From positions 62,001 to 126,000 of the forward strand of contig NZ_SMKV01000009.1 in the NCBI RefSeq assembly GCF_004348445.1: a stretch of DNA of 64,000 nt, written 5' to 3'. Position 1 is the first letter of the stretch. Every line of letters begins with the position of its first letter. A program made the translations under genes and the position numbers. This document shows, one piece after another, positions 35,649 through 49,836 of this stretch. Below the pieces are notes generated by a model. That model saw nothing but the letters and a program-made list of their open reading frames with translations. It was not told where the DNA came from and did no database searches. Origin of the DNA: Saccharopolyspora aridisoli (GTDB lineage: Bacteria; Actinomycetota; Actinomycetes; Mycobacteriales; Pseudonocardiaceae).

Positions 35649-38237
35649 TCACTCCGCGGGTTCGACGGCAAGGGCTTCGTTGTCGTCGGTGACGTCGATG
35701 CGGACCTTGTCGCCTTCGCGGATGTCGCCCGCGAGGAGCTTGCGGGCCAGCTGGTCGCCGATGGCCGACTGCACCAGGCGGCGCAGCGGGCGAGCGCCGT
35801 AGACCGGGTCGAAACCGTTGAGCGCCAGCCAGTCCCGCGCCGCCGGTTGCACGTCGAGGGCCAGCCGGCGCTGCGCGAGCCGCTTGGCCAGCCGGTCCAC
35901 TTGGATGTCCACGATGGACGTGAGCTCCTCGGTGTTGAGCTGGTGGAACACCACGACGTCGTCGAGCCGGTTGAGGAATTCGGGCTTGAAGTGCCCGCGC
36001 ACCACCGACATCACGGCCTCGTCTCGGTCCCGCTCGCCGAGGTTGGGATCGGCGATGGCCTGCGACCCGAGGTTGGAGGTCAGCACCAGGATCGTGTTGC
36101 GGAAGTCGACCGTGCGGCCCTGCCCGTCGGTGAGCCGCCCGTCGTCGAGGACCTGCAGCAGCACGTCGAAGACGTCGGAGTGTGCTTTCTCGACCTCGTC
36201 GAACAGCACCACCGAGTAGGGCCTGCGGCGGACCGATTCGGTGAGCTGACCGCCCTGGTCGTGGCCGACGTAGCCGGGCGGGGCACCGACCAGGCGGGAC
36301 ACCGAGTGCTTCTCGGAGTACTCGCTCATGTCGATGCGGATCATCGACCGCTCGTCGTCGAACAGGAACCCGGCGAGCGCCTTGGCCAGCTCGGTCTTGC
36401 CGACCCCGGTCGGGCCCAGGAACAGGAACGAGCCGGTCGGCCGGTCCGGGTCGGCGACACCGGCGCGGGTGCGCCGGACCGCGTCGGCGACCGCGCGCAC
36501 CGCTTCCGCCTGACCGACGACGTGGGCGCCGAGGGCGTCCTCCATCCGCAGCAGCTTGGTGGTCTCGCCCTCCATCAGGCGCCCCGCGGGGATGCCGGTC
36601 CAGGCGCTGACGACGTCCGCGACGTCGTCAGCGGTGACCTCCTCCTGCAGCATCGCCTTGCGCTCGGTCTGCGCGTGGGTGGCCGTGTCGAGTTCTTTCT
36701 CCAGCGCGGGGATTCGCCCGTAGCGGAGTTCTGCGGCCTTGCCGAGGTCGCCGTCGCGCTCGGCGCGCTCGGACTCCCCGCGCAGCTGTTCCAGCTGGGT
36801 CTTGAGGTCGCGGACCTTGTCGATGGACTCCTTCTCCTGCTGCCAGCGCGCGGTGAGCTCGGAGAGCTTCTCGCGCCGGTCGGCGAGCTCGGCGCGCAGC
36901 GCCGCGAGGCGTTCGACCGAGGCCGGGTCGGACTCCTTGGCCAGCGCCATCTCCTCGATCTCCAGCCGGCGCACGGCCCGCTCGACCTCGTCGATCTCCA
37001 CCGGACGCGAGTCGATCTCCATGCGCAGCCGGGAGGCGGCCTCGTCGACCAGGTCGATGGCCTTGTCCGGCAGGAAGCGGGCGGTGATGTAGCGGTCGGA
37101 CAGCGTCGCTGCGGCCACCAGGGCCCCGTCGGTGATCCTGACGCCGTGGTGGACCTCGTAGCGCTCCTTGAGCCCGCGCAGGATCGCCACGGCGTCCTCG
37201 GGGCTCGGTTCGCCGACCAGCACCTGCTGGAATCGGCGTTCCAGCGCGGCGTCGGTCTCGATGCGCTCGCGGTACTCGTCGAGCGTGGTCGCGCCGACCA
37301 TGCGCAGCTCGCCGCGCGCCAGCATGGGTTTGATCATGTTGCCCGCGTCCATCGAACCATCACCGGAGGCACCAGCGCCGACGATGGTGTGCAGCTCGTC
37401 GATGAAGGTGATCACCTGACCGGCTGATTCGGTGATCTCCTTCAGCACGGCCTTGAGCCGTTCCTCGAACTCGCCCCGGTACTTCGCGCCGGCCACCATC
37501 GAACCGAGGTCGAGCGAGATGACCCGCTTGCCGCGCAGCGATTCGGGCACGTCACCTGCGACGACCCGCTGCGCGAGGCCCTCGACGATGGCGGTCTTGC
37601 CGACACCGGGCTCACCGATGAGCACCGGGTTGTTCTTGGTCCGCCGGGACAGCACCTGCACGACGCGACGGATCTCGGCGTCGCGGCCGATGACCGGGTC
37701 GAGCTCGCCTGCGCGGGCGCGCTCGGTGAGGTCCTGGCCGTACTTCTCCAGCGCTTGGTAGGTGCCTTCGGGATCGGGGCTGGTCACGCGGGCCGAGCCG
37801 CGCACGTTGGCGAAGGCCTCCCGCAGGGCGTCGGGCGTGGCTCCGTGCTTGCGCAGCAGGTCGGCGACGCTGCCGCCCTCGGCTGCCAGCCCGACGAGCA
37901 GGTGCTCGGTGGAGACGTACTGATCGCCCATCTCGGTGGCCAGGTGTTGCGCGCGGGTGAGCGCCTTGACGGCTTCGCCCGACAGCTGCGGGGCGCCGAC
38001 GGTGCTGCCGGTGGCGGCGGGCAGTGAGTTCGTCAGCGAGTCGAGCTCGCGCCGCACGTCGGCGACGTCCGCCCCGACGGCGGTCAGCAGCGGTGCGGTC
38101 AGCCCGTCACCTTGCGCGAGCAGGGCCCCGAGCACGTGCGCGGGGCCCACGTCCGGGTTCCCCGCCATGGTGGCGGCCTGGACCGCGGAGGAGATGGCCT
38201 GTTGGGTCTTCGTCGTCGGGTTGAACGCGTCCATCAC
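35649..38237 (-). CDS. clpB: ClpB disaggregase
   Basis: 862 aa Hsp100 ATPase that works with DnaK/DnaJ/GrpE to resolve protein aggregates. It has the N-terminal Clp repeats (residues 1-145), Walker A1 [16 protein letters not shown], a coiled-coil middle domain (about 400-525, ending [20 protein letters not shown]), Walker A2 [17 protein letters not shown], and sensor-2 GARPLRR. Two tandem ATG codons; the start could be 38234. An HspR-type operator at 38310-38330 indicates control by HspR, encoded at 47.4-47.9 kb. Confidence 0.98.
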
Positions 38238-38309
38238 TCACCTCGTGCCGGTTCCGTGCCTGGTCGGTCCGCCTGTCGGCACCAGACTCACACTTCCAAC
38301 ATAACAAAA

Positions 38310-38330
38310 GTTGAGCGCGTTCCACTCAAG
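38310..38330 (-). promoter_or_regulatory. HspR operator (HAIR) upstream of clpB
   Basis: TTGAG-N9-CTCAA (38311-38315 and 38325-38329), the spacing of the actinobacterial HspR-associated inverted repeat. The left outer base is G instead of C, so the arms are 5 bp. It lies 73 bases upstream of the clpB start. The matching sites before dnaK support it. Confidence 0.85.
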
Positions 38331-38459
38331 TCATGATTTCACACTAGTTTTCTTTTTTCACACCGCGTGAACATGGGCCTGGCCATTCGGACCAACCTTC
38401 CGCAGATTGTTACGCACAGTGCTTGCTTTCAGCGGTTTTGCTCGCTTTGCTATTGCGCC

Positions 38460-40037
38460 ATGACCTACACCTTGGGGACACCACCGCCGGACGGCGAACT
38501 CGTCCTTGCGGCTGATGCCGGCCCACTCGCCGGCATCGAGGACACCATCAACAACGTCTTCACGCCGATCTCGGAGGCCTTCTCCGGATTCGTTTTCGGT
38601 GAGATCACCGTCTTCGGCGTGACCTTCCCGTGGATCGTCGCCTGGCTGGTGATCGCCGCGACGGTGTTCACGCTGGTCTTCGGTTTCGTGCAGATCCGGA
38701 ACTTCAAGCTCGCGGTCGACCTGGTGCGCGGCAAGTACACCAGCAAGGAAGAGCCCGGCGAGATCAACCACTTCCAAGCACTGGCCTCAGCGCTGTCGGG
38801 AACCGTCGGCCTGGGCAACATCGCCGGCGTCGGTGTCGCGGTCACCGTCGGCGGCGCGGGTGCGACGTTCTGGATGATCCTCTGCGGTCTGCTCGGCATG
38901 GCGACCAAGTTCGTCGAGTGCACCCTCGGGGTGAAGTACCGCGAGATCGACGCGGACGGCAACGTTCACGGCGGTCCGATGCACTACCTGCGCAAGGGCC
39001 TCGCCGAGCAGATCCCCAACGCCTTCGGACGCGGCCTGGGCAAGGTGCTCGCCGTGCTGTCGGCGATCATGATCCTGCTGTTCGGCATCGGCGGCGGCAA
39101 CATGTTCCAGGCCAACCAGACCTTCGCCCAGGTGCGCGACGTCACCGGTGGCGAGGAGGGCCTGCTCGGCTCCGACGGCGCCGCGCTGATCTTCGGCATC
39201 ATCCTGGCGATCATCGTCGGCTCGGTCGTGGTCGGCGGCATCAAGTCCATCGGCGCGGTGACCAGCAAGCTCGTCCCGGCGATGGCCATCGTCTACGTCC
39301 TGGCCTCGCTGACGGTCATCGGCGTCAACATCACCGCTGTGCCGGACGCGGTCGCCACGATCATCCAGGGCGCGTTCACCCCGGAGGCCGGTTTCGGCGG
39401 TCTCATCGGTGTGCTGATCGTCGGTTTCCAGCGCGCGGCGTTCTCCAACGAGGCCGGCCTGGGCTCGGCGCCGATCGCGCACTCCGCGGTCCGCACCAAG
39501 AACCCCACCACCGAGGGCCTGGTGGCGCTGCTGGAGCCCTTCATCGACACCGTCATCATCTGCACCATGACCGCGCTGACCATCGTCATCGCGCAGCCGC
39601 AGCTGTGGGTCGAGGGGCAGAAGGCGGTGCTGGCCGGCGGCGAGGAGCCGGACGGCGTCACGGTGACCTCCGAGGCGTTCGCCAGCGTCCTGCCCTGGTT
39701 CCCGTACGTGCTGACCGTGGCGGTCGTGCTCTTCGCCGTCTCGACGATCATCACCTGGGGCTACTACGGCCAGCGCGCGTGGCTGTTCCTGTTCGGCAAC
39801 ACCTCGGTGAGCCGCAACATCTACAACGTGGTGTTCTGCCTGTTCGTTGTCGTCGGTTCGGTGCTGAGCCTGAGCAGCGTCATGGACTTCACCGACGCGG
39901 TGCTGTTCCTGCTGGCCCTGTTCAACATCATCGGCCTCTACATCATGATCCCGGTGGTCAAGCGGGAGCTGGCCGACTACAAGGCCAAGATCCGCTCCGG
40001 AGAGGTTCGGAAGGTCAACTCGAAGTCCGGCGTCTGA
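38460..40037 (+). CDS. Alanine/glycine:cation symporter (AGCS family)
   Basis: 525 aa from ATG 38460; no strong ribosome site. Sodium- or proton-coupled uptake of alanine or glycine. The family signature is GTVGLGNIAGVGVAVTVGGA near residue 115, followed by FWMILCGLLGMATKFVECTL and AFSNEAGLGSAPIAHSA. About ten to eleven membrane segments; the last ends in a basic tail. Divergent from clpB, with a 222-base gap holding the HspR operator. Two hairpins follow it. Confidence 0.95.
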   Translation: MTYTLGTPPPDGELVLAADAGPLAGIEDTINNVFTPISEAFSGFVFGEITVFGVTFPWIVAWLVIAATVFTLVFGFVQIRNFKLAVDLVRGKYTSKEEPGEINHFQALASALSGTVGLGNIAGVGVAVTVGGAGATFWMILCGLLGMATKFVECTLGVKYREIDADGNVHGGPMHYLRKGLAEQIPNAFGRGLGKVLAVLSAIMILLFGIGGGNMFQANQTFAQVRDVTGGEEGLLGSDGAALIFGIILAIIVGSVVVGGIKSIGAVTSKLVPAMAIVYVLASLTVIGVNITAVPDAVATIIQGAFTPEAGFGGLIGVLIVGFQRAAFSNEAGLGSAPIAHSAVRTKNPTTEGLVALLEPFIDTVIICTMTALTIVIAQPQLWVEGQKAVLAGGEEPDGVTVTSEAFASVLPWFPYVLTVAVVLFAVSTIITWGYYGQRAWLFLFGNTSVSRNIYNVVFCLFVVVGSVLSLSSVMDFTDAVLFLLALFNIIGLYIMIPVVKRELADYKAKIRSGEVRKVNSKSGV

Positions 40038-40084
40038 ACGCAAGACCGACGCCTGCCCTGAACACCGGCGCAACTCGGGTCACG

Positions 40085-40130
40085 GATCACCGCGTTGATC
40101 GCGGTGCCCGGTCACCGATCGGCGGTGATC
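40085..40130 (+). terminator. Hairpin with GATCACCGC/GCGGTGATC arms
   Basis: A 9-bp stem (40085-40093 with 40122-40130), 47 bases after the AGCS stop. Its arms are the core of the hairpin at 25487-25528. The loop itself contains TTGATCGCGGTG, a third half-copy. Confidence 0.6.
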
Positions 40131-40143
40131 GGGGTTGAGGCAT

Positions 40144-40184
40144 GAAGAAGCCGTGCGCACCCCCGACGTGCGCACGGCTTCTTC
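40144..40184. terminator. Strong bidirectional terminator
   Basis: A 17-bp stem (40144-40160 with 40168-40184; left arm GAAGAAGCCGTGCGCAC) with a 7-base loop and a following CTTCTTCC run. It lies between the convergent AGCS and YceI genes. Confidence 0.9.
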
Positions 40185-40229
40185 TTCCTAAGGAGCGGCC
40201 GAGCCAGCCACAGCAGACCGCTCCTGGTC

Positions 40230-41096
40230 TCATTCCTGCTCGTGCACCACCTGGACGTCGATCTGCACGCGCAGGGTGGTGCCGACAGTGGCGATGCCGC
40301 TCTTGAGCGACTGGCGGAACCGCACCGCGAAGTCGTCGCGACGCAGCTGCGCGACCGCCGAGGCCGAGGCCCGGGTGCCGCCCCACTGGTCGGGGCCGAC
40401 TCCGTCGAAGCGGGTGTCCAGCATGACCGGTTTGCTCACGCCGAGCATGGTGAGCTCACCCTCCAGGTCCCACTTGTCGCCGCCGCGCGGGCGCAGCCCG
40501 GTGGAGCGGAAGGTGATCGCCGGGTACTCGGCGACGTCGAGGAAGTCCTCGGTGCGCAGGTGGTCGTCGCGCAGCTTGTTGCCGGTGTCGATGGTGTCTG
40601 CGTTGATGCGGGCTTCCACCAGCGACTTCTCGATCGGGGTGCCGATGCGCACCTCGCCGGAGAACTCGTTGAAGCGGCCGTGGATGCTGCTCAGGCCGAG
40701 GTGCTTGGCGGTGACCTGGATGGAGGAGTGCACGGGGTCGATCCGCCACAGCCCGGGGGCGGGCAGGTCGGAGCCGCCGATGCGGCGGACCTCGACGGCA
40801 CCGAGGTTGGCGGTCGCGCCCTCGTGCACCAGGGTGGTGCGAGCTACCGGCTCGTGGCCGATCGCGGTGACGATCGCGGTGTAGGCGCCCGCGGCGAGAC
40901 CGGAGGCCATCACCGAGCCCTGCGCGTCGCCTTGAGCCCGTGCGACCTGAGTGCCGCTTCCGTCGATGACGGTGAGCACCGCCTCCGGCACCGGCCAGCC
41001 GTCGCTTCCGCACACCGACGCCGTCACCGCCCCGGACCCCCGGGCGGCACCGGTCTCGCCGTTGGCGGACGCGGCCTGCGGTTGGCCGAAATCCAT
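40230..41096 (-). CDS. YceI-family protein with N-terminal prealbumin-like domain
   Basis: 288 aa. Residues about 24-105 form a carboxypeptidase-regulatory-like (prealbumin-like) beta-sandwich: WPVPEAVLTVIDGSGTQVA, GLAAGAYTAIVTAIGHEPVA. Residues about 115-288 are a YceI lipocalin-like domain: LWRIDPVHSSIQVTAKHLG, ARINADTIDTGNKLRDDHL, EDFLDVAEYPAITF, ELTMLGVSKPVML. YceI proteins bind long polyisoprenoid or amide lipids. There is no signal peptide, so it should be cytoplasmic, unlike the periplasmic E. coli protein. It follows the MFS fusion gene by 121 bases, and its N-terminal domain is related to the three repeats at that transporter's C-terminus. Confidence 0.9.
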   Translation of the reverse strand: MDFGQPQAASANGETGAARGSGAVTASVCGSDGWPVPEAVLTVIDGSGTQVARAQGDAQGSVMASGLAAGAYTAIVTAIGHEPVARTTLVHEGATANLGAVEVRRIGGSDLPAPGLWRIDPVHSSIQVTAKHLGLSSIHGRFNEFSGEVRIGTPIEKSLVEARINADTIDTGNKLRDDHLRTEDFLDVAEYPAITFRSTGLRPRGGDKWDLEGELTMLGVSKPVMLDTRFDGVGPDQWGGTRASASAVAQLRRDDFAVRFRQSLKSGIATVGTTLRVQIDVQVVHEQE

Positions 41097-41217
41097 CTGA
41101 GAACACTCCTTTGAAGCAGAGCTCGATCATGATCTTGCTCGGCGGGCGGGCCGACGTCCAGTCGATCCCGCCCGCCGCAGCACGACCGTGACCTCCGGGT
41201 GGTGCTGCTGCGACCGG

Positions 41218-43728
41218 TCAGCCTTCGGGATAGCCCAGGTCGACGTCGTGCGACGTCTCCTGGCCCGTCAGCCGCAGCGAGCCGGCCACCGGCGGATAAC
41301 CGCTGGCGATCACCGTGTACTCGCCGTCGGGCAGGTCGGTGAAGTGGTAGTTGCCGTCGATGTCGGTGGTGCCCGCGGCCACCACCGCGCCCGAATCGTC
41401 GAGCAGCGTCACCCTCGCGTCCGGTACCGGCACGCCCAGGTTGGCCGACCGGATGACGCCGCTCAGCTGCGCTCCGGTCTGGAGGGCGACGTCGAGGCTC
41501 ACCCGCTCCCCATCGGTGACCACGATCGGGTTAGCCACCGGACGGTATCCGTCCGCGGTGACGGTCAGCGCGTAGGAACCGCCGACCAGGTCGGAGAAGC
41601 CGTAGTCGCCGTCGGCGTCGGTGGCGTTGGTGGCCACGACCTCGCCGCGCACGTCGGTGAGCACCACCATCGCGCCCGCCACGCCGACACCGCCGACGTG
41701 CACCAGGCCGCTGAGCTCACCGGCGCCGAGCAGCTGCACGTCGTGCCGCACCGGTCGGTCGGCCACGACCACCATCGAGGCGGTGGGCTGGTAGCTGCCG
41801 CCGGAGGCGATCAGCACGTAGGTGCCGCCGTTGTCGACGGCGAAGTGAAACTCACCGTCGATGTCGGTGCGCGCCCGCTCCACCTGGCGCCCGTTGGCGT
41901 CGGTGAGGGTCAGCACCACACCGGACACCGGGGTGCCGATCGAGTCGTGGACGACGCCGTGCACGACCCGCTGCTGGGCGTGCTCCTGGCCGTCCACGTG
42001 GTGGCCGCCGGTCAGCGCCGCGCCGTTGGAGGCGAACGACGGGATCGACGGCTCGGTCCACGGGCTGGCCTGGGCGGAGTTGCTCTGCGCGCCGTTGTTC
42101 CGGCCCTCTTCGTGTGCGGCCACTGAAGCCGTCTCCATTTCCTCGTTGCTTTCGATCGTGGTCCGCAACGGCTTCTCGCGGATGAACAGCACCGCGAGGA
42201 AGGTGACCACGGAGACGCACGCCGAGATGAGGAAGATGTCGCCGATGGCATCCCCGTACGCCGCGCGGACGATGGTCTGGATCGGCCCGGGCAGGTTTCC
42301 CACGTCCAGCGATCCGGTTCCGCCGCCGGAGGCCGCGGCCTCAGCCGCGCCGGGGACCTTCGCCAGCCCTTCCACGATGTAGTCCTGAACGCGGGTGGCC
42401 AGCACCGCGCCTAGCACCGACACACCAGCCGAACCTCCCAAGGTGCGGAAGAAGGTGACGACGGAGGTCGTCGAGCCCATGTCCTTGGCGCTGGTGGCGT
42501 TCTGCACCGCCAGCACCAGGTTCTGCATGAGCATGCCCACTCCGGTGCCCATCAGGAAGAGGTGGACCCCCACCAGCACCAGGTTCGTTTCATGATCGAC
42601 GGTGCTCAGTAGCCCCATCGCAATGATCATCACGATCGAGCCGACCACGAGGAACGGTTTCGTCCTGCCGGTGTACCGGGAGATGACCTGACCGCTGACC
42701 GTGGACGAGATGAACAGACCGCCGACCATCGGCAGCGTCATCAGGCCCGCGGTGGTCGGGCTGAAGCTGCGCGCGATCTGGAAGTACTGCCCCAGGAACA
42801 CCGCGCCGCCGAACATCGCGGTGCCGACCGCGACGGTGCCGATGGTGGCCATCGTGACGGTGGGGTTGCGGAACATCCTCAGCGGCACGATCGGCTCGCT
42901 GTGCTTGGACTCGATGATCAGCGCGATGATCAGCGCGAGGATGCCGCCACCGACGAAGGAGCCGGTCTCAGGCGAGAGCCAGTCGAAGTCCTTGCCTGCC
43001 AGCGAGACCCAGATCAGCAGCAGCGACACGCCGCCGACCAGGAACAGCGCACCGAACCAGTCGATCTTGGCCTCGCGCTTGATCACCGGCAGCTTGAGCA
43101 CCCGGCCGAGCACGATGAAGGCGACGACGGCGATCGGCACGGTGACCCAGAAGCACCAGCGCCATCCCAGCCACGGGGTGTCCACGATGACGCCGCCGAC
43201 CAGCGGGCCGCTGACGGTCGCCACGGCGAAGGTGGCGCCGATGTAGCCGCTGTAGCGACCGCGGTCGCGCGGCGGGACCATCGCGGCGATCACGACCTGG
43301 ATCAGCGCCTGGAGTCCGCCCATTCCGATGCCCTGCAGGGCGCGGAAACCGATCAGGGTCTCCATCGACTGCGCGAAACCACCGGCCACGGAGCCGACGG
43401 TGAAGATGGTGATCGCGATCTGGTACAGCAGCTTCTTGCTGAACAGGTCGGAGAGCTTGCCCCACAGCGGGGTGGAGGCGGTGGAGGTCAGCAGCATCGC
43501 CGTGACGACCCAGGTGTACTGGCCTTGGGTGCCGTGCAGGTCGGCGATGATCCTCGGCAGCGCATTGGACACGATGGTCGAGCTGAGGATGGCGACCAGC
43601 AGCGCCAACATCAGGCCGGACATGGCCTCCAGGACCTGGCGGTGCGACATCGCCTGGTCCTGGGTCGAGTCGTGCGGCGCGCTCGGTTGAGCCGACACCT
43701 TGGGCGCCGTCTCCGTCGAGCTGGTCAT
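41218..43728 (-). CDS. DHA2-type MFS transporter fused to three prealbumin-like repeats
   Basis: 836 aa. Residues about 30-525 are a 14-TM drug/proton antiporter-2 transporter: SGLMLALLVAILSSTIVSNALP, GKLSDLFSKK (motif A), GGLQALIQVVIAAMVPPRDRG, ending AVLFIREKPLR. After a polar linker (about 526-587) come three repeats of 82-84 residues at about 588-671, 672-754 and 755-836. Each has P-x-SGVVLTLTD-like, TDxDGxYxF and GxYxLxVxAxGY-like strands, as in carboxypeptidase-regulatory or Cna-B domains. In 14-TM MFS proteins the C-terminus is cytoplasmic, so the repeats should face inward. Ordinary DHA2 proteins end near 500 residues. It overlaps the MarR gene by 4 bases (ATGA) and precedes the YceI gene. 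Cargo unknown; a lipid or hydrophobic compound is an inference from YceI. Confidence 0.93.
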   Translation of the reverse strand: MTSSTETAPKVSAQPSAPHDSTQDQAMSHRQVLEAMSGLMLALLVAILSSTIVSNALPRIIADLHGTQGQYTWVVTAMLLTSTASTPLWGKLSDLFSKKLLYQIAITIFTVGSVAGGFAQSMETLIGFRALQGIGMGGLQALIQVVIAAMVPPRDRGRYSGYIGATFAVATVSGPLVGGVIVDTPWLGWRWCFWVTVPIAVVAFIVLGRVLKLPVIKREAKIDWFGALFLVGGVSLLLIWVSLAGKDFDWLSPETGSFVGGGILALIIALIIESKHSEPIVPLRMFRNPTVTMATIGTVAVGTAMFGGAVFLGQYFQIARSFSPTTAGLMTLPMVGGLFISSTVSGQVISRYTGRTKPFLVVGSIVMIIAMGLLSTVDHETNLVLVGVHLFLMGTGVGMLMQNLVLAVQNATSAKDMGSTTSVVTFFRTLGGSAGVSVLGAVLATRVQDYIVEGLAKVPGAAEAAASGGGTGSLDVGNLPGPIQTIVRAAYGDAIGDIFLISACVSVVTFLAVLFIREKPLRTTIESNEEMETASVAAHEEGRNNGAQSNSAQASPWTEPSIPSFASNGAALTGGHHVDGQEHAQQRVVHGVVHDSIGTPVSGVVLTLTDANGRQVERARTDIDGEFHFAVDNGGTYVLIASGGSYQPTASMVVVADRPVRHDVQLLGAGELSGLVHVGGVGVAGAMVVLTDVRGEVVATNATDADGDYGFSDLVGGSYALTVTADGYRPVANPIVVTDGERVSLDVALQTGAQLSGVIRSANLGVPVPDARVTLLDDSGAVVAAGTTDIDGNYHFTDLPDGEYTVIASGYPPVAGSLRLTGQETSHDVDLGYPEG

Positions 43729-44216
43729 CGAGTTCGTCCCCCCATCCCGGAGCCTGAGTGATCTCCGCTTTCGATCGTGTGGCGGCGGATGTCCGACATC
43801 GCGTCGCCGAGCAACCGGGCCAGTTCGCGGACCTTCGCGTCCTCCCAGTCGACCAGCGCCTCACCGATCCACTCCGCCTTCTTCCGCTCGAGCTCGGTGA
43901 CGACCCGGTTGCCGAGATCGGTGGTCCGCAGCAGCGAGACCCGGCGGTCGACTGGGTCCGGTCGGCGTGTGATCAGTCCGGCCTGCTCGAGCTGGTTCAC
44001 CTGCCGGCTCACCACGGACGCATCGACGATGCGGTGGTGAGCGAGGTCGGAGACCCGGCATTCGCCGCGGTGCACCAGCTCGGTGAGCAGCCCCGCCGCG
44101 GCGTAGGGGACCTGGTCGGACAGCTGCAACCCCCGTTGCAGCGCGACCTGCTTGAGGTCCATCAAGGCGCGGAGTGGGCGGAGCAGCTCACCGCAGGTCT
44201 CTGGTGTAGGTCCCAT
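43725..44216 (-). CDS. MarR-family regulator heading the MFS/YceI operon
   Basis: 163 aa. The winged helix is LLTELVHRGECRVSDLAHHRIVDASVVSRQVNQLEQAGLITRRPDPVDRRVSLLRTT. It is the first gene of an operon with the MFS fusion (4-base overlap) and YceI. Two GTTGC-N5-GCAAC palindromes lie immediately upstream, so it very probably represses its own operon until a ligand is bound. Confidence 0.93.
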   Translation of the reverse strand: MGPTPETCGELLRPLRALMDLKQVALQRGLQLSDQVPYAAAGLLTELVHRGECRVSDLAHHRIVDASVVSRQVNQLEQAGLITRRPDPVDRRVSLLRTTDLGNRVVTELERKKAEWIGEALVDWEDAKVRELARLLGDAMSDIRRHTIESGDHSGSGMGGRTR

Positions 44217-44234
44217 CGCGAGCCCATCCTGTTA

Positions 44235-44278
44235 GTTGCTCTAGGCAACAATAGGGCCACTTGGTTGCAGCACGCAAC
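44235..44278 (-). promoter_or_regulatory. Twin MarR operators
   Basis: Two perfect palindromes GTTGC-N5-GCAAC at 44235-44249 and 44264-44278, with centres 29 bp apart (nearly three helical turns), 18 bases and more upstream of the marR start at 44216. Identical arms and even spacing are strong evidence for a cooperative site. Confidence 0.85.
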
Positions 44279-44374
44279 TGAAATGGGGGTGACTCGCACC
44301 ACCGGCCATTCAGGGCCTTCTGCGCGATGGGGCACGATTCAGCGCACGGGAGCCGAGCTGGCGGGCCCGTCAGA

Positions 44375-44839
44375 TCAGCTGGTCTGGTTCAGCTTGCCGA
44401 GCAGCCGGGCGAGGTCGGCGAGGTCCTGCGTGCTCCAGCTGGCGAACTGGCCGTGGAGGTGCTTGCGGCGCTCGGCGCGCACCCGCTCCAGGCGCTCCTG
44501 CCCCAGGTCGGAGAGCTGGATGCGGCGGGCGCGGCCGTCGTCCGGGTCGGGGGCGCGCTCCAGCAGCTCCAGATCGACGAGGGTGGCGATCTGCCGCGAG
44601 ACCGTGGACTTGTCCAGGCCGGTGCGGTCGGCCAAGTCCATGCCGCGCAGCGGTCCTTCGTTGGCCACCATCAGCAACATCGTGTAGGAGGCCGGGTCCA
44701 GGTCCGGGTGCACCAGCGCGGCGACGTGCGTGGAGAGGTTCCGCGCGTTGCGGAACATCATCACCAGCTCGCGTTCGATCTCCTCGGCCGCTTCGCGGCG
44801 CGCGGGGTCCTCAGCGATCTCGTCGTCCTGCTCGCTCAC
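44375..44839 (-). CDS. Second MarR-family regulator
   Basis: 154 aa. Winged helix: YTMLLMVANEGPLRGMDLADRTGLDKSTVSRQIATLVDLELLERAPDPDDGRARRIQLSDLG. The N-terminus has a run of acidic residues. Ends 158 bases upstream of the first marR. The gap contains the twin operators, so the two genes are probably separate units. Its own target is not evident. Confidence 0.9.
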   Translation of the reverse strand: MSEQDDEIAEDPARREAAEEIERELVMMFRNARNLSTHVAALVHPDLDPASYTMLLMVANEGPLRGMDLADRTGLDKSTVSRQIATLVDLELLERAPDPDDGRARRIQLSDLGQERLERVRAERRKHLHGQFASWSTQDLADLARLLGKLNQTS

Positions 44840-45021
44840 GTCACTCCCCGCACCTTGCGACCGTTTCGCCCCACTCTAGGGAGCACGGCCGCAACGCAGA
44901 GCACCAGCCCGGGAACTCGTCAACCGAATTCCCAACCGGACGACGACTGTCACCGACCGCCAGGCGAGCGCTGACGGCGCTTCCTCAGCGCCCCGCCTGA
45001 GCAGCCGGCACCGCGAGTTCT

Positions 45022-45105
45022 CAGACGTCGTCTGGCGGGACAGCCGTAGCCCGCTTTCGTGTCCGCTCCACACTCAGGTCCCGGACCGAGCCAGACGGCG
45101 TCTGG
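45022..45105. promoter_or_regulatory. Pair of CAGACG/CGTCTG palindromes
   Basis: CAGACG-T-CGTCTG at 45022-45034 and CCAGAC-GGC-GTCTGG at 45091-45105, centres 70 bp apart. They are in the 307-base gap upstream of the second marR gene. They may bind a regulator, perhaps that MarR. The rest of 44840-45146 holds no gene, only a copy of the 31-bp repeat. Confidence 0.45.
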
Positions 45106-45106
45106 A

Positions 45107-45137
45107 GTTCCGCCACCCGCACCGCCACGCAACACGA
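45107..45137 (+). repeat. 31-bp dispersed repeat, copy 2
   Basis: Matches 26112-26142 at 29 of 31 positions, beginning GTTCCGCCACCCGCACCGCC. It abuts the second CAGACG palindrome and lies 9 bases from the 3' end of the PNPOx-like gene. Confidence 0.7.
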
Positions 45138-45146
45138 CCAGGAGGC

Positions 45147-45926
45147 TTAGGCGGAGACCTCGTGCCAGGGACGGGGCATGCCCTTGGCGCTGAAGTAGTC
45201 GCCACCCTTGCGCTTCACGTCGTCGGTGCCCCAGGTGCGTTCCCGCAGGACGGGCATCATCCGGGGGATGTGCTTGCGGCAGTGGATGTAGGCCTCCTCG
45301 ACCTGCACCACCACCCAGCGCTCGGGCGTGCGGCCCCGGTCGAACTCCGAGGGCAGCGCGGGGTAGATGCCGCGCAGGTCCGAGTCCTCGACGATGCGGG
45401 CCTTGCCGTTGACGTGCAGGCCGATCAGGTCGGTGACGAAGTCCACCAGGAGGATGCCGACGTGCGGGTTCTCACTGATGTTGCCGAGGCTGGCCATCAC
45501 TCCGTTGCCCCGGTACTCCGGGTAGCAGACGTGCTGGTCGTCGAGGACCTCGAGGAAGCCGGGCGGGCCTGCCCGCAGGCTGGAATCGCACTCACCTCGG
45601 GCGTCGGAGGTCGCCACGAAGGCCAGCTCCATGCGCCCGATGAACTCCTTCATCTCGTCGTTGAGCCTGTCCAGGACCTGGTCGTCGTAGAAGCGGCGGG
45701 CCCGCTTCTCGGTGCCGTAGGCGCTCTGGAGCAGGTGCTCACCGGCCGATCCGGGCAGAGTCGGGGATTCCTGCCGGAACGGGTCGGCGAGCTGCGGCTC
45801 GGATAATCGGGCGGGGATCGGGACGGGGGGTGTTGTGCTGTCGGACAGCTCCAGGTCCAGCATGGCAGCGGGAGCCACGCCGGCCGGGTTGATGTGATCG
45901 GGGGTCACGGCGGACCACAGTGTCAT
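45147..45926 (-). CDS. Pyridoxamine-5'-phosphate-oxidase-like flavin/heme-fold protein
   Basis: 259 aa if started at ATG 45926; ATG 45863 is also possible, and neither has a clear ribosome site. The split-barrel core is EFIGRMELAFVATSDARGECDSSLRAGPPGF, VCYPEYRGNGVMASLGNISENPHVGILLVDF and LHVNGKARIV. The C-terminal block YIHCRKHIP and the final RKGGDYFSAKG fit a group often found beside ferredoxin-reductase or globin genes. Divergent from the flavohemoglobin; a role in NO or oxidative stress is only inferred from position. Confidence 0.82.
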   Translation of the reverse strand: MTLWSAVTPDHINPAGVAPAAMLDLELSDSTTPPVPIPARLSEPQLADPFRQESPTLPGSAGEHLLQSAYGTEKRARRFYDDQVLDRLNDEMKEFIGRMELAFVATSDARGECDSSLRAGPPGFLEVLDDQHVCYPEYRGNGVMASLGNISENPHVGILLVDFVTDLIGLHVNGKARIVEDSDLRGIYPALPSEFDRGRTPERWVVVQVEEAYIHCRKHIPRMMPVLRERTWGTDDVKRKGGDYFSAKGMPRPWHEVSA

Positions 45927-45985
45927 GTCAACCCGTCCGGTAACAGGTTGGCCACTAGCTTTCCCCCGACCGATTGATGGATTAT

Positions 45986-46019
45986 CTACGTGAAGTAGTT
46001 GCAAAGCACTCGAAAGTGC
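45986..46019. promoter_or_regulatory. Inverted repeats in the divergent PNPOx/flavohemoglobin promoter
   Basis: GCACT-CGAA-AGTGC (46006-46019) is perfect, and an ACTAC-like pair (CTAC at 45987, GTAG at 45995) lies just before it. They sit between the divergent starts at 45926 and 46146. They could be operators; no match to a known NO-sensor site is claimed. Confidence 0.35.
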
Positions 46020-46145
46020 CATCAAGGCAGACGTACGTCCGATCAGAGGTTAGGGTCGCCCCTGATGTCGGGGGACGTTTGCAGGTAGCGGTTGCGCCCA
46101 CCCCAGGTGCCTGCCGCCAACGTGGAGAAGACTGCGCCCGAAACG

Positions 46146-47318
46146 ATGACGAACGCCGTACTGAGTCCAGGTCCGCCCCCGAACCACGAGCCGTCCCACT
46201 CCGGTGTGAGCAAGATGGTTCGACTCATCCGCGAGAGCTACGCGGTGGTCGAACCGCACTCCGACGAGGTGGCGAAGTTCTTCTACGGCACCTTGTTCAG
46301 CATCGCGCCGCACACCCGCGAGCTGTTCGCCGCCAACATGGAGGTGCAGCGCAGCCGCCTGCTTCGGGCGCTCGTGCACGTCATCCAGATGGTCGACAAG
46401 CCCGACGAGCTGCTGCCGTTCCTGCAGCAGCTGGGTCGCGACCACCGCAAGTTCGGTGTCGTCACCCAGCACTACGAGGCGGTCGGCACCGCGCTGTTGG
46501 CGGCCATCAAGCGCTACGCCGGTGACAGCTGGACCGACCAGGTCGAACGCGCCTGGGCGGAGGCGTACACGGTCATGGCCTCGGCGATGACCGAAGCGGC
46601 TGCCGCCGACGACGGTCCCGCCTGGTACACCGGCCAGGTCCTGCACCACGAGCGGCTGAGCTGGGACCTCGCCGTGGTCCGCGTGCAGACCGACCACCCG
46701 GTGCCCTACCTGCCCGGCCAGTACGTCAGCGTCGAGGTCCCCCAGCGGCCCCGGATGTGGCGGTACCTGTCGCCGGCGAACGCGCCCAGCGACGACGGCG
46801 TGATGGAGTTCCACGTCCGCTCCGTCGAGGGCGGGTGGGTCAGCCGTGCGGTGGTCGGCCACGCGCAGCCCGGCGACCAGTGGCGGATCGGCTCGCCGAT
46901 GGGTCGGCTGACGGTCGACCGGGGGAACTCGCCGGACGTCCTGATGGTCGCAGGCGGCACCGGAGTCACGCCGCTGCGCGCGATCATCGACGACCTCGCC
47001 CAGTACGGCGAGAACCCGCGCGTGCAGCTCTTCTACGGCGGACGCACCCGCGACGACCTCTACGACCTGGAGAACCTCCGCCGCATCGCGATGCACAACC
47101 CGTGGCTGACGATCACGGCCGTGCTGGAGAACGACCCGAACTTCGACGGTGTCGAGCACGGCACGATCGCCGACGTCGTCTCCCGCTACGGCGCCTGGGA
47201 GGGCTGGGACGTGCTGGTCTCCGGTTCTCCGGCGATGATCCGCGCCACGGTCTCGAAGATGCTGGTCGCGGGCACCACCCTCGACCACATCCGCTACGAC
47301 CCGTTCACGTTGGACTGA
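46146..47318 (+). CDS. Flavohemoglobin (globin-FAD-NAD), type II-like
   Basis: 390 aa from ATG 46146 (GTG 46122 possible). The globin part (about 24-155) has Tyr47 (FFYGTLF, position B10), Gln68 (E7) and the proximal His100 in GRDHRKFGV. The reductase part has PYLPGQYVSVEV, the FAD region RMWRYLSPAN, and the NAD loop VAGGTGVTPLRAI. In classical NO dioxygenases the FAD motif is RxYS; here it is RYLS, and the C-terminal FGP end is absent. This agrees with the divergent type II group, of which M. tuberculosis Rv0385, next to clpB, is the known member. Reaction on NO is therefore uncertain. Confidence 0.88.
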   Translation: MTNAVLSPGPPPNHEPSHSGVSKMVRLIRESYAVVEPHSDEVAKFFYGTLFSIAPHTRELFAANMEVQRSRLLRALVHVIQMVDKPDELLPFLQQLGRDHRKFGVVTQHYEAVGTALLAAIKRYAGDSWTDQVERAWAEAYTVMASAMTEAAAADDGPAWYTGQVLHHERLSWDLAVVRVQTDHPVPYLPGQYVSVEVPQRPRMWRYLSPANAPSDDGVMEFHVRSVEGGWVSRAVVGHAQPGDQWRIGSPMGRLTVDRGNSPDVLMVAGGTGVTPLRAIIDDLAQYGENPRVQLFYGGRTRDDLYDLENLRRIAMHNPWLTITAVLENDPNFDGVEHGTIADVVSRYGAWEGWDVLVSGSPAMIRATVSKMLVAGTTLDHIRYDPFTLD

Positions 47319-47373
47319 GTCCGCTCGTCCTGCTCAGCGAAGCGAACCGGCTTCTGAACCGTGCTCGACGCCG

Positions 47374-47408
47374 AGGAGGGCGCCTCCCACCAGGGGAGAC
47401 GCCCTCCT
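47374..47408. terminator. Bidirectional terminator
   Basis: Stem AGGAGGGCG (47374-47382) with CGCCCTCCT (47400-47408), extended by CTCCC/GGGAG after one mismatch, with a 5-base loop. Between the convergent flavohemoglobin gene and hspR. Confidence 0.85.
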
Positions 47409-47422
47409 TCGCGTTCACGGGG

Positions 47423-47893
47423 TTACCGCTTGCGGTTGGGTTTCCAGACGACCAACGCGGTCTCCTGCCGCAACGGGACGAGGTCCCGGCGGTAGGAGGC
47501 GTGGATCTGGGCCGCCGCCGATTCCGCCGCCGCGTAGGCCGCCGCGACCTCCTCGGTGAGCTCGGTGACCTTGGCCTGCAGCGCGTCGACCTGGTTCTCC
47601 AGATCGATGATGCGCTTGATACCGGCCAGGTTGACGCCCTCCTCCTGGGAGAGCCGCTGCACCTCGCGCAGCAGCGCGATGTCGCGCAGCGAGTAGCGTC
47701 GGCCTCCTGCCGCGGTGCGTCCGGGCGAGACGAGTCCGAGCCGGTCGTAGCTGCGCAGCGTCTGCGCGTGCAGACCGGACAGCTGCGCCGCCACCGAGAT
47801 CACGAACATCGGGGTGTCCTCGTTTGAACCGGGCGGGAACGCGAATCCCATCTCCGGACCGAGCCCACCGGGGCCCGTCATGCGGCCGGCCAT
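47423..47893 (-). CDS. hspR: Heat-shock repressor HspR (MerR family)
   Basis: 156 aa from ATG 47893, chosen over GTG 47899 because GGGAGG then has the right 5-6 base spacing. The winged-helix DNA-binding part is VISVAAQLSGLHAQTLRSYDRLGLVSPGRT, followed by GGRRYSLRDIALLREVQRLSQEEGVNLAGI, then a coiled coil (about 100-135). It binds TTGAG/CTCAA inverted repeats and represses dnaK and clpB; DnaK acts as co-repressor in Streptomyces. Last gene of the dnaK operon, starting 2 bases after the dnaJ stop. Confidence 0.96.
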   Translation of the reverse strand: MAGRMTGPGGLGPEMGFAFPPGSNEDTPMFVISVAAQLSGLHAQTLRSYDRLGLVSPGRTAAGGRRYSLRDIALLREVQRLSQEEGVNLAGIKRIIDLENQVDALQAKVTELTEEVAAAYAAAESAAAQIHASYRRDLVPLRQETALVVWKPNRKR

Positions 47894-47895
47894 GC

Positions 47896-49089
47896 TCACC
47901 TCCCGAGCAACTCGTTCAGCTCGCTGCGCGGGTCGTGTTCGGCGGTGGCCTCGGCGTACTCGGCGAGCGCTTCGGCCGCCTTGCCGTCGAGCTTCGACGG
48001 CACCGCGACCTGCAGCGTCACCAGGAGGTCCCCGTTGCCACCGGCCTTCTTGCCCACGCCCTTGCCACGCACCCGGAAGGTCCGTCCGCTGCTGGTTCCG
48101 GCGGGAACCTTCAACGTGACCTTCCCGTCCAGGGTCGGCACCGCCAACGTAGTGCCCAGCGCGAGTTCCGGGAAGGTGACCGGGACCGAGATCGTCAGGT
48201 CATCACCGGATCGTCCGAACACCTTGTCGCCGTTGACGTGCACCACGACGAACAGATCGCCCGAGGTGGCGCCTTGTCGCCCGGGCTCGCCCTGCCCCGC
48301 CAGCCGGATCCGCTGCCCGTCGTCCACCCCTGGCGGGATGCGCACGGTCAGCGTCCGGGTGCGAGTGCTGATGCCCTCACCGCCGCAGTCCTCGCACGGG
48401 CTGTCGATGATCTGGCCGCGTCCCCGGCAGTCCGGGCACGGCTCGCTGAACGCGAACGCGCCCTGGTTGCGGGTGACCAGACCTGCGCCACCGCAGGTGG
48501 AGCAGCCGCGCGGCCGGGTTCCGGGCTTGGCCCCCGAGCCCCGGCAGGTCTGGCAGGTCGCCGGGCTCGACAGCCTCAACGGCACCGTGGCACCGCGCAC
48601 CGCTTCGTAGAAGTCGATGCGCACCTCGGTCTCGACGTCGGCCCCGCGCCGCGGCCTGCTGGCCGTGGTCGGGCCCGCGCCACCACCGGGTCGCCGGTTG
48701 CCGAACAACCCGCCGAACAGGTCGCCCAGGCCACCGGCCCCCTGCTGAGCACCGAAGAGGTCACCGAGGTCGAATCCGCCACCGGCACCGCCGGGACCGC
48801 CGAAGCCACCCGGAGCGCCGAAGCCACCGCCCGCGCCACCGAGCCCGCCGGCTCCGAAGAGCCGCCGGGCCTCGTCGTACTGCTTGCGCTTGTCGGGGTC
48901 GGACAGCACCCCGTACGCCTCGGAGACCGCCTTGAACTTGGACTCGGCCCGGGCGTTGCCGGGGTTGGCGTCGGGGTGGTTCTCCCGAGCCAGCTTCCGG
49001 TAAGCCTTCTTGATGTCCTCGGATGAAGCATCGGAGGAGACGCCCAGTTCAGCGTAGAAATCCTTGTCGAGCCATTCCCTGGCACTCAC
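47896..49089 (-). CDS. dnaJ: Chaperone DnaJ
   Basis: 397 aa from GTG 49089, with GGGAGGAGGA upstream. J-domain with HPD in [10 protein letters not shown], a Gly/Phe-rich linker ([18 protein letters not shown]), four CxxCxGxG zinc motifs ([32 protein letters not shown]) and a C-terminal substrate domain. It stimulates DnaK ATPase and delivers substrates. It resembles the DnaJ1 type encoded with dnaK and grpE in actinomycetes. Confidence 0.97.
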
Positions 49090-49114
49090 CGGACGCTCCT
49101 CCTCCCGCTCATGG

Positions 49115-49836
49115 TCACTCTTGTTCGGTGGACTCGCCGGACTGGTCGGCACCGGCCTCGGACGCGGTTTCCGCGTCGGCCTCGTAGTCGGTCACCGCGA
49201 CCATCGCCGGCCGCAGCACCCGCTCGCCGAACCGGTAACCGCGGCGCATCACGGTCGTGACCGTGGGTCCGGAGACCTCCGACGAGGTGGTGTGCTGGAC
49301 GGCCTCGTGCACCGACGGGTCGAACTCGTCGCCCTCGGCCCCGAACGCCTCCAGACCGGAGGAGTTCAGCGTGCCGATGAGCTTGTCGGCCACCGCCTTG
49401 AACGCGCCGTTGAGGTCGCCGTGCGCCTCGGCGCGCTCCAGGTCGTCGAGCACGGTCAGCAGGTCGCCGGCCACCGACGCCTTCGCGGCGGCGATCACCG
49501 ATTCGCGGTCGCGTTCCACCCGCTTGCGGTAGTTCGCGTACTCCGCGGTGACCCGCTTGAGGTCGGCGGTGAGCTCGTCGACCTGCTTCTGCAGGCCGGT
49601 GGACTCGCCGCCCTGCTCGGGCGAGGCACCGTCGACGGGCTGGTCGACCGACTCGTCGGCCTGACCCACGTTCTCGTCGAGGGTGCCGGACATGCTTTCG
49701 GCCACCTGAGCCTCGTCTCCGCTCGGAGCAGGGGTCCGGCGCTCGCCGGTCTCGGGGTCGATTCGACGCCGATCCCGGACGACCACCGGCTCCTGCTGCT
49801 CGCCTTCGTTGCGCGACATTTCGGGCCTGTCCGAAG

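Follow-up and report, generated by a model that had tools for sequence, protein, structure and literature searches.

Exporters are usually viewed as taking their substrate unaided, from the membrane or from the cytosol. In what follows, we take HygB and Thi, the two releasing compounds of the closest described case, to be hygromycin B and thiostrepton. That case is the SAV4189-SAV4190 operon of Streptomyces avermitilis, which is repressed by the MarR-family protein SAV4189, footprinted on its own promoter, and which is released by HygB and Thi (Guo et al., 2018; main text of PMC6036246). The same source derives the 13-bp operator consensus TTGCCYKHRSCAA from three sites ahead of the operon, names SAV4190 a transmembrane efflux protein, gives SCO4032-SCO4031 as the counterpart pair of S. 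coelicolor, and reports about 56-67% more avermectin after deletion of SAV4190. Here we analyse an operon in a stretch of 64,000 nucleotides of Saccharopolyspora aridisoli (contig NZ_SMKV01000009.1, positions 62,001 to 126,000; hereafter the window), which we read, from its genes and putative operator sites, as a relative of the SAV4189-SAV4190 operon. Its part of known kind is a MarR gene with an efflux pump, and its two additional parts are a tail of three CarboxypepD_reg-like domains (R1-R3) at the C-terminus of the pump, and a YceI-family protein that begins with a fourth CarboxypepD_reg-like domain (CRD). For these two parts we found no description among the papers listed in our literature searches or in the text of PMC6036246 and PMC3924187, and the words 'YceI' and 'carboxypeptidase' have zero occurrences in the main text of the former. 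Together, the tail and the fourth copy on the YceI protein suggest, without proving it, a delivery arm on a drug-type exporter of soil actinobacteria.

Architecture of the operon

The genes for MarR, the pump and the YceI protein follow one another in this order, all on the minus strand, as do the features within them. First, the gene for the MarR-family repressor (163 amino acids; positions 43725..44216) overlaps the start of the pump gene by 4 nucleotides, as was found in 15 of the 15 named loci measured. Second, the pump gene (836 amino acids; 41218..43728) encodes an exporter of the MFS, of the DHA2 type, with 14 transmembrane helices followed by the three C-terminal domains. Third, the YceI gene (288 amino acids; 40230..41096), whose distance from the pump gene ranges from -4 to 239 nucleotides in the named loci measured, encodes a protein with an N-terminal CRD and no signal-like N-terminus. 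The original prediction for this stretch had proposed this very set of genes, including the triple repeat tail and the fourth domain, and it is confirmed here.

The membrane core of the pump (residues 35-516; 42181..43626) matches MFS_1 over residues 39-435 (168.4 bits, cut-off 33.4). Among narrower families it is nearest to Tcr3 (252.5 bits), followed by OtrB (228.3 bits) and the EmrB subfamily TIGR00711, for which its 226.7 bits narrowly miss the curated NCBIfam cut-off of 230.2 bits; of five further pumps with a tail that were scanned, two exceed this cut-off (244 bits in locus L278 and 258.5 bits in L279) and three fall short of it. A linker of low conservation, predicted to be disordered (residues 517-585; 41974..42180), leads from the core to R1 (586-670; 41719..41973), R2 (671-753; 41470..41718) and R3 (754-836; 41221..41469), namely, by our borders, 85, 83 and 83 residues with a mutual identity of 35-45%. 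CarboxypepD_reg (PF13620) matches the tail in three stretches (125.3 bits, cut-off 32.3), and a DUF1416 model matches residues 570-638, in the region of R1; DUF1416 models match some further domains of this kind as well. Over five compared orthologues, identities are 51-87% for the core, 46-86% for R1, 46-72% for R2, 48-84% for R3 and 10-42% for the linker. These figures describe an arm that is conserved and a tether that is loose.

In the YceI protein, the YceI domain (residues 114-287; 40236..40757) matches PF04264 at residues 117-282, with 135.9 bits against a gathering cut-off of 23.7, and among solved structures TT1927b (1wub, 115.7 bits) and E. coli YceI (1y0g, 97.2 bits) were matched; some structurally solved relatives are named polyisoprenoid-binding proteins. 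The CRD (residues 23-106; 40779..41030) matches CarboxypepD_reg at residues 24-98 with 35.3 bits, barely over the cut-off of 32.3, and is 30-33% identical to the pump repeats, of which R1 is the nearest.

The AlphaFold2 model of the pump (17 sequences; mean predicted local distance difference test score, pLDDT, of 67.9) places 14 membrane helices inside residues 29-514. A linker modelled with low confidence follows at 523-584 and then, at 587-831, come three beta domains, with block pLDDT values mostly of 75-90. The fold matches of the model in Foldseek include EmrB, EfpA and, as the second best, the Rv1410 homologue 8pnl. Lys and Arg account for 23 of the 185 residues of the cytoplasmic-side loops, against 7 of the 123 in the outer loops. 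A simple hydropathy scan, in which no dedicated signal-peptide program was used, found no signal-like stretch in the N-termini of 15 of 15 YceI orthologues (highest 15-residue mean 1.25). The 14 helices, the positive-inside loops and these N-termini predict a cytosolic location for tail and fourth domain alike. This supports the original prediction, where the repeats had been placed in the cytoplasm and the YceI protein had been described as lacking a signal peptide. On this model the tail is very probably a flexibly tethered cytoplasmic arm.

Putative operator sites and the SAV4189-SAV4190 operon

Within 250 nucleotides upstream of the MarR gene, and also on the minus strand, lie two relaxed sites (TTGC-N5-GCAA) in the form of operator-like palindromes, namely, TTGCGTGCTGCAA (44265..44277) and TTGCCTAGAGCAA (44236..44248), with their 5' ends 61 and 32 nucleotides ahead of the MarR start codon, respectively. 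The 29 bp between them equal the spacing of sites b1 and b2 in most loci of g42, a Streptomyces-like genus of our sample, which, judged by the resemblance of its sites to the operator consensus, would be Streptomyces itself. In this genus, nine of nine YceI-bearing loci scanned have at least one site fitting TTGCCYKHRSCAA, and three loci have all three sites. Upstream of MarR, TTGC-N5-GCAA was found in 15 of 16 named loci, with a relaxed form in the remaining one, against a background of 28 occurrences in 603,770 bases (40 loci). Such operator-like sites lend support to the control by MarR that had been proposed for this operon. Inducible export is, in our judgement, likely.

Gene order and MarR length agree with those of SAV4189-SAV4190, where a MarR repressor gene likewise shares its transcript with an MFS efflux gene behind it. 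Two further likenesses are the published deletion borders, +104 to +2446, which suggest a pump open reading frame (ORF) of ~2.5 kb (main text of PMC6036246), and a hydrophobic divergent ORF found upstream in five of the eight Streptomyces-like YceI-bearing loci examined. The systems differ in the gap between MarR and pump, published as 22 nucleotides, whereas the called starts give 11-13 nucleotides in seven of the eight Streptomyces-like loci. SAV4190 itself would be expected to carry the tail as well. The SCO4121 pump of S. coelicolor, likewise under MarR control, was also weighed as a possible match and set aside, since its neighbours are unlike those of the operon, SCO4120 being recorded as a histidine kinase.

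Co-occurrence of the tail and the YceI gene

MarR, pump and tail occur together in 22 of 22 same-genus genomes, and a downstream YceI gene in 21 of them (once in two frames); in the last one the contig ends inside the tail. A MarR gene and a tailed pump also neighbour the YceI gene in each of the 16 named loci (14 of Saccharopolyspora, plus Actinopolyspora and Actinopolymorpha), all of which were found via the YceI gene.

In a survey of 296 genomes from the window's class, 77 tail matches turned up in 46 genomes; without 7 partial ones, 70 matches in 43 genomes were retained. Among the matches listed, to which all counts from this survey refer, 44 CRD-YceI genes occur in 33 genomes, starting at model position 2-5 with at least 307 bits; the next matches, at 216 bits or less, lack a CRD start. 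Eight to nine candidates were scored per genome, so that misses are possible. Directly downstream of a tailed pump and on the same strand lie 29 of the 44 CRD-YceI genes, with 21-409 nucleotides between match ends. Counted by genome, 31 have both elements, 12 have the tail only and 2 have the CRD-YceI gene only.

The association was also measured from the side of the pump, in a set of 40 family pump loci (39 of the 58 matches above 656 bits plus one further pump; 19 were left out, including 8 of the window's genus). Tail and YceI gene are found together in 10 of these loci, the tail only in 14, neither in 16, and the YceI gene without the tail in none, so that 0 of 16 tailless pumps have a YceI neighbour (one-sided Fisher p of 0.002, with kinship ignored). 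For all 93 pump matches, an uneven sample in which many loci were obtained via the YceI gene, the corresponding numbers are 45, 31, 16 and 1, the lone case being a fragment of the L089 pump, which a frame change interrupts. The tailless pumps include close relatives, with cores 60-69% identical, in L023, L024, L026, L027 and L029, four of which have two upstream MarR matches. On a tree of 84 cores, six changes are needed for the tail and nine for YceI adjacency, and the full set occurs in at least two separated pump clades, long branches making a third unsure. No frame fusing pump and YceI was seen in the annotated loci, where fusion was not searched for as such. In these samples, the YceI gene presupposes the tail, and the tail does not presuppose the YceI gene.

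The CRDs themselves differ according to their location. For YceI proteins near a tailed pump, the best-scoring repeat is R1 in 23 of 24 cases (21 pump-adjacent genes were chosen rather than all, and L090, L095 and L096 were counted as near-pump; the YceI gene of L096 is on the opposite strand, ~4 kb away from the pump). For the orphan CRDs it is R2 in 13 of 15 and R1 in 1 of 15. A second CRD-YceI family, ~35-41% identical to that of the window and with no adjacent tailed pump, was observed in the window's own genome (contig C81; L104, 6970-8058, minus strand) and in L097-L103 and L118-L124. In L011, L143 and L225 the YceI gene is split over two frames, as is the pump gene in L089, either by decay or by assembly error.

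One tail on different exporters

Three repeat copies are present in 75 of 76 tailed pumps scored against the window core, with two in the remaining one, and in 20 of 20 further tails; two copies were found in three more distant MFS frames (L279, L281 and L282). When each locus in turn was left out, every one of the 84 repeats tested (28 loci) was placed at its own position. In the repeat tree, R1 makes up one side of a branch (support 94), and R2 and R3 need 3 and 2 changes, respectively. The tail is one cassette, the repeats of which are recognisable by position. As a separate observation, a free-standing frame of 318 amino acids with three CRDs and no membrane core lies near a two-CRD pump (L283, 4107-5060, plus strand).

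The cores that carry the cassette are diverse. The window core is nearest to Tcr3, and five other tailed pumps scanned are nearest to the general EmrB model, then to OtrB, FexB, FexA or LmrA. All eight membrane cores scanned belong to exporter-type families, seven to MFS_1 and one to MMPL. The latter is an MMPL (RND-type) protein with the same three-domain tail, a single frame of 1142 amino acids (L277, 2024-5449, plus strand) in one fragmented genome (970 contigs, contamination 6); no further tailed MMPL proteins were found in a search of that family and order, which covered the same single genome. Outside the window's class no tail was found in a 296-genome draw from the phylum, all 14 tail-bearing genomes of which belong to the same class.

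A possible delivery arm and its alternatives

With a confidence somewhat below even, the reading that we favour is an antibiotic-responsive export module with a cytoplasmic arm that serves, in some lineages, as the docking site of a soluble YceI carrier. MarR would bind TTGC-N5-GCAA-type sites ahead of its own gene and, given the gene order, keep down its own gene, that of the pump and probably that of YceI. Release of MarR by a toxic compound would follow, as others have reported for SAV4189-SAV4190 (Guo et al., 2018; main text). The pump, by its family, would be a proton-driven DHA2-type exporter, with three predicted beta domains as its flexibly tethered cytoplasmic arm. The soluble YceI protein, from a family of barrels, may load, either in the cytosol or from the inner leaflet, a substrate that is bulky and hydrophobic, and the members of the family called polyisoprenoid-binding would point to a lipid-type ligand. 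Its CRD would contact the arm and bring the protein to the pump for handover of the cargo. In armed pumps without a CRD-YceI protein, the arm might serve another soluble partner or the ligand itself. Docking of the YceI protein on the arm, taken alone, is tentative, and we would not put it at an even chance either. In favour of the module as a whole speak the MarR-pump-tail set of the same-genus genomes and of the named loci, the TTGCCYKHRSCAA sites of genus g42, the release of SAV4189 by antibiotics, the pairing of YceI gene and tailed pump, which recurs in separated pump clades, the absence of YceI at tailless pumps, the likeness of near-pump CRDs to R1, and the predicted helices, linker and loops.

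Several observations weigh against this module. The upstream region of the window has no strict TTGCCYKHRSCAA site, nor does any of the seven YceI-bearing loci L089-L095, three of which have a relaxed site, and a relaxed site also precedes four of seven scanned pumps without YceI. The YceI half of the structure model is poor, with block pLDDT values of 40-81. In the class survey, 41 of 70 tailed pumps are without a YceI neighbour, 12 of 43 tail-bearing genomes are without a detected CRD-YceI gene, and 15 of 44 CRD-YceI genes are orphans. Only four independent pairs on starred branches of the core tree differ in the tail, and therefore no significance can be claimed from it. Moreover, the CRD may have entered the YceI protein by ordinary domain shuffling.

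Because of these 41 pumps and 12 genomes, docking of a CRD-YceI protein cannot be the sole role of the tail. The handover or docking system put forward in the original prediction thus stands in part: the pairing is non-random, with 29 of 44 CRD-YceI genes downstream of tailed pumps, and is seen in more than one deep pump clade, but it accounts for the tail incompletely, since only 29 of 70 tailed pumps have the adjacent YceI gene whose frequency that prediction proposed to count. A random scatter of the tail over unrelated transporters without YceI neighbours, named there as evidence to the contrary, was seen by half, given that the tail does sit on unlike transporters, including one MMPL protein, but on exporter-type cores in all eight scanned, and with no YceI neighbour at the 16 tailless pumps.

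Close in weight to the docking reading, and quite possible, is that the tail is an exporter accessory that works without YceI, by cytosolic substrate capture or sensing, by pump clustering or by binding another protein, and that YceI is a co-regulated lipid chaperone whose CRD serves its own fold or dimer. The 41 pumps without YceI, the orphan genes, and the presence of the same cassette both in several subfamilies of DHA2 and in one MMPL protein all argue for such independence. However, it leaves unexplained why 29 CRD-YceI genes lie directly behind tailed pumps, why tailless pumps are without YceI neighbours, and why near-pump CRDs, unlike orphan ones, resemble R1.

Rather improbable, in our judgement, is a division of labour in which the pump exports the drug and YceI, under stress from antibiotics, guards or carries one of the cell's own isoprenoids or quinones, with a common inducer and separate substrates. 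It agrees with the polyisoprenoid-binding names of some solved YceI relatives and with the response of SAV4189 to exogenous antibiotics in S. avermitilis (main text of PMC6036246). Nevertheless, the shared domain is left unaccounted for. Finally, CarboxypepD_reg, SdrD-B and pilin domains are usually extracellular, and the non-transporter fold matches of the pump model, BcpA, SdrD and TIE among them, are surface proteins of Gram-positive bacteria, but an extracellular tail is very improbable given the 14 helices of the model, the positive-inside loops, a tail with no Cys, and a YceI neighbour without a signal-like N-terminus.

With a conserved arm of almost always three domains, predicted to be cytoplasmic, built from a domain common to a soluble lipid-binding-type protein and encoded next to an antibiotic-responsive repressor, the idea that an MFS pump is fed from the cytosol can be put to a direct test. 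The operon to which these unnoticed components belong is probably the one that has been engineered before for higher avermectin yield.

Genes around the operon

Directly upstream of the operon's MarR gene lies a second MarR-family gene (44375-44839, minus strand). A second upstream MarR match was found in 18 of 22 same-genus loci, and also beside four tailless relatives (L023, L026, L027 and L029). A PNPOx-type gene is located near the operon both in the window (45150-46025, minus strand) and in a Streptomyces-like locus (L112, 7053-7523, minus strand), and a gene for a flavohaemoglobin-type globin-FAD-NAD protein adjoins the region in the window (46092-47315, plus strand). A gene for a sigma-70 factor precedes the operon in each of the two Streptomyces-like loci examined for it (L111, 12721-13875, and L112, 12803-14071, both on the minus strand).

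Comparison with known transporters

E. coli YajR (3wdo) ranks 48th in the Foldseek list. This MFS protein ends in a soluble domain on the cytoplasmic side, which is single, small and ferredoxin-like, and it is not known to have a YceI partner. The best family matches of the core, Tcr3, OtrB and EmrB, the last of which, together with EfpA, is matched in fold as well, stop at residue 518 or earlier and do not reach the tail. The matches to TT1927b and E. coli YceI cover only residues 117-284 and 121-259, respectively, with the CRD unmatched. A Pfam scan found no EmrA-like adaptor among the ten genes of positions 35649-49152, which sets the operon apart from tripartite pumps of the EmrAB type.

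By analogy, the nearest functional parallel would be the Rv1410c-LprG pair for triacylglyceride export, in which an MFS pump is likewise encoded alongside a lipid-binding protein (accessible text of PMC10576003), but this pair acts outside the membrane and with the transfer running the other way. First, LprG is described there as a periplasmic lipoprotein that takes lipid from the pump, whereas the neighbour in the window is predicted to be cytosolic and would deliver to the pump. Second, an exported and lipid-anchored partner does not agree with the 15 YceI N-termini, which by hydropathy have no signal-like stretch. Third, Rv1410 is distinguished by periplasmic helix extensions (PMC10576003). 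It is tempting to go further, to what we regard as an unlikely but far-reaching reading, namely, that in actinomycetes a portable, position-ordered cassette of three beta domains makes exporters of two superfamilies, DHA2 and MMPL, carrier-fed from the inside, with soluble cytosolic carriers docking by a matching fourth domain and passing on hydrophobic cargo, as a mirror image of outside partners like LprG.

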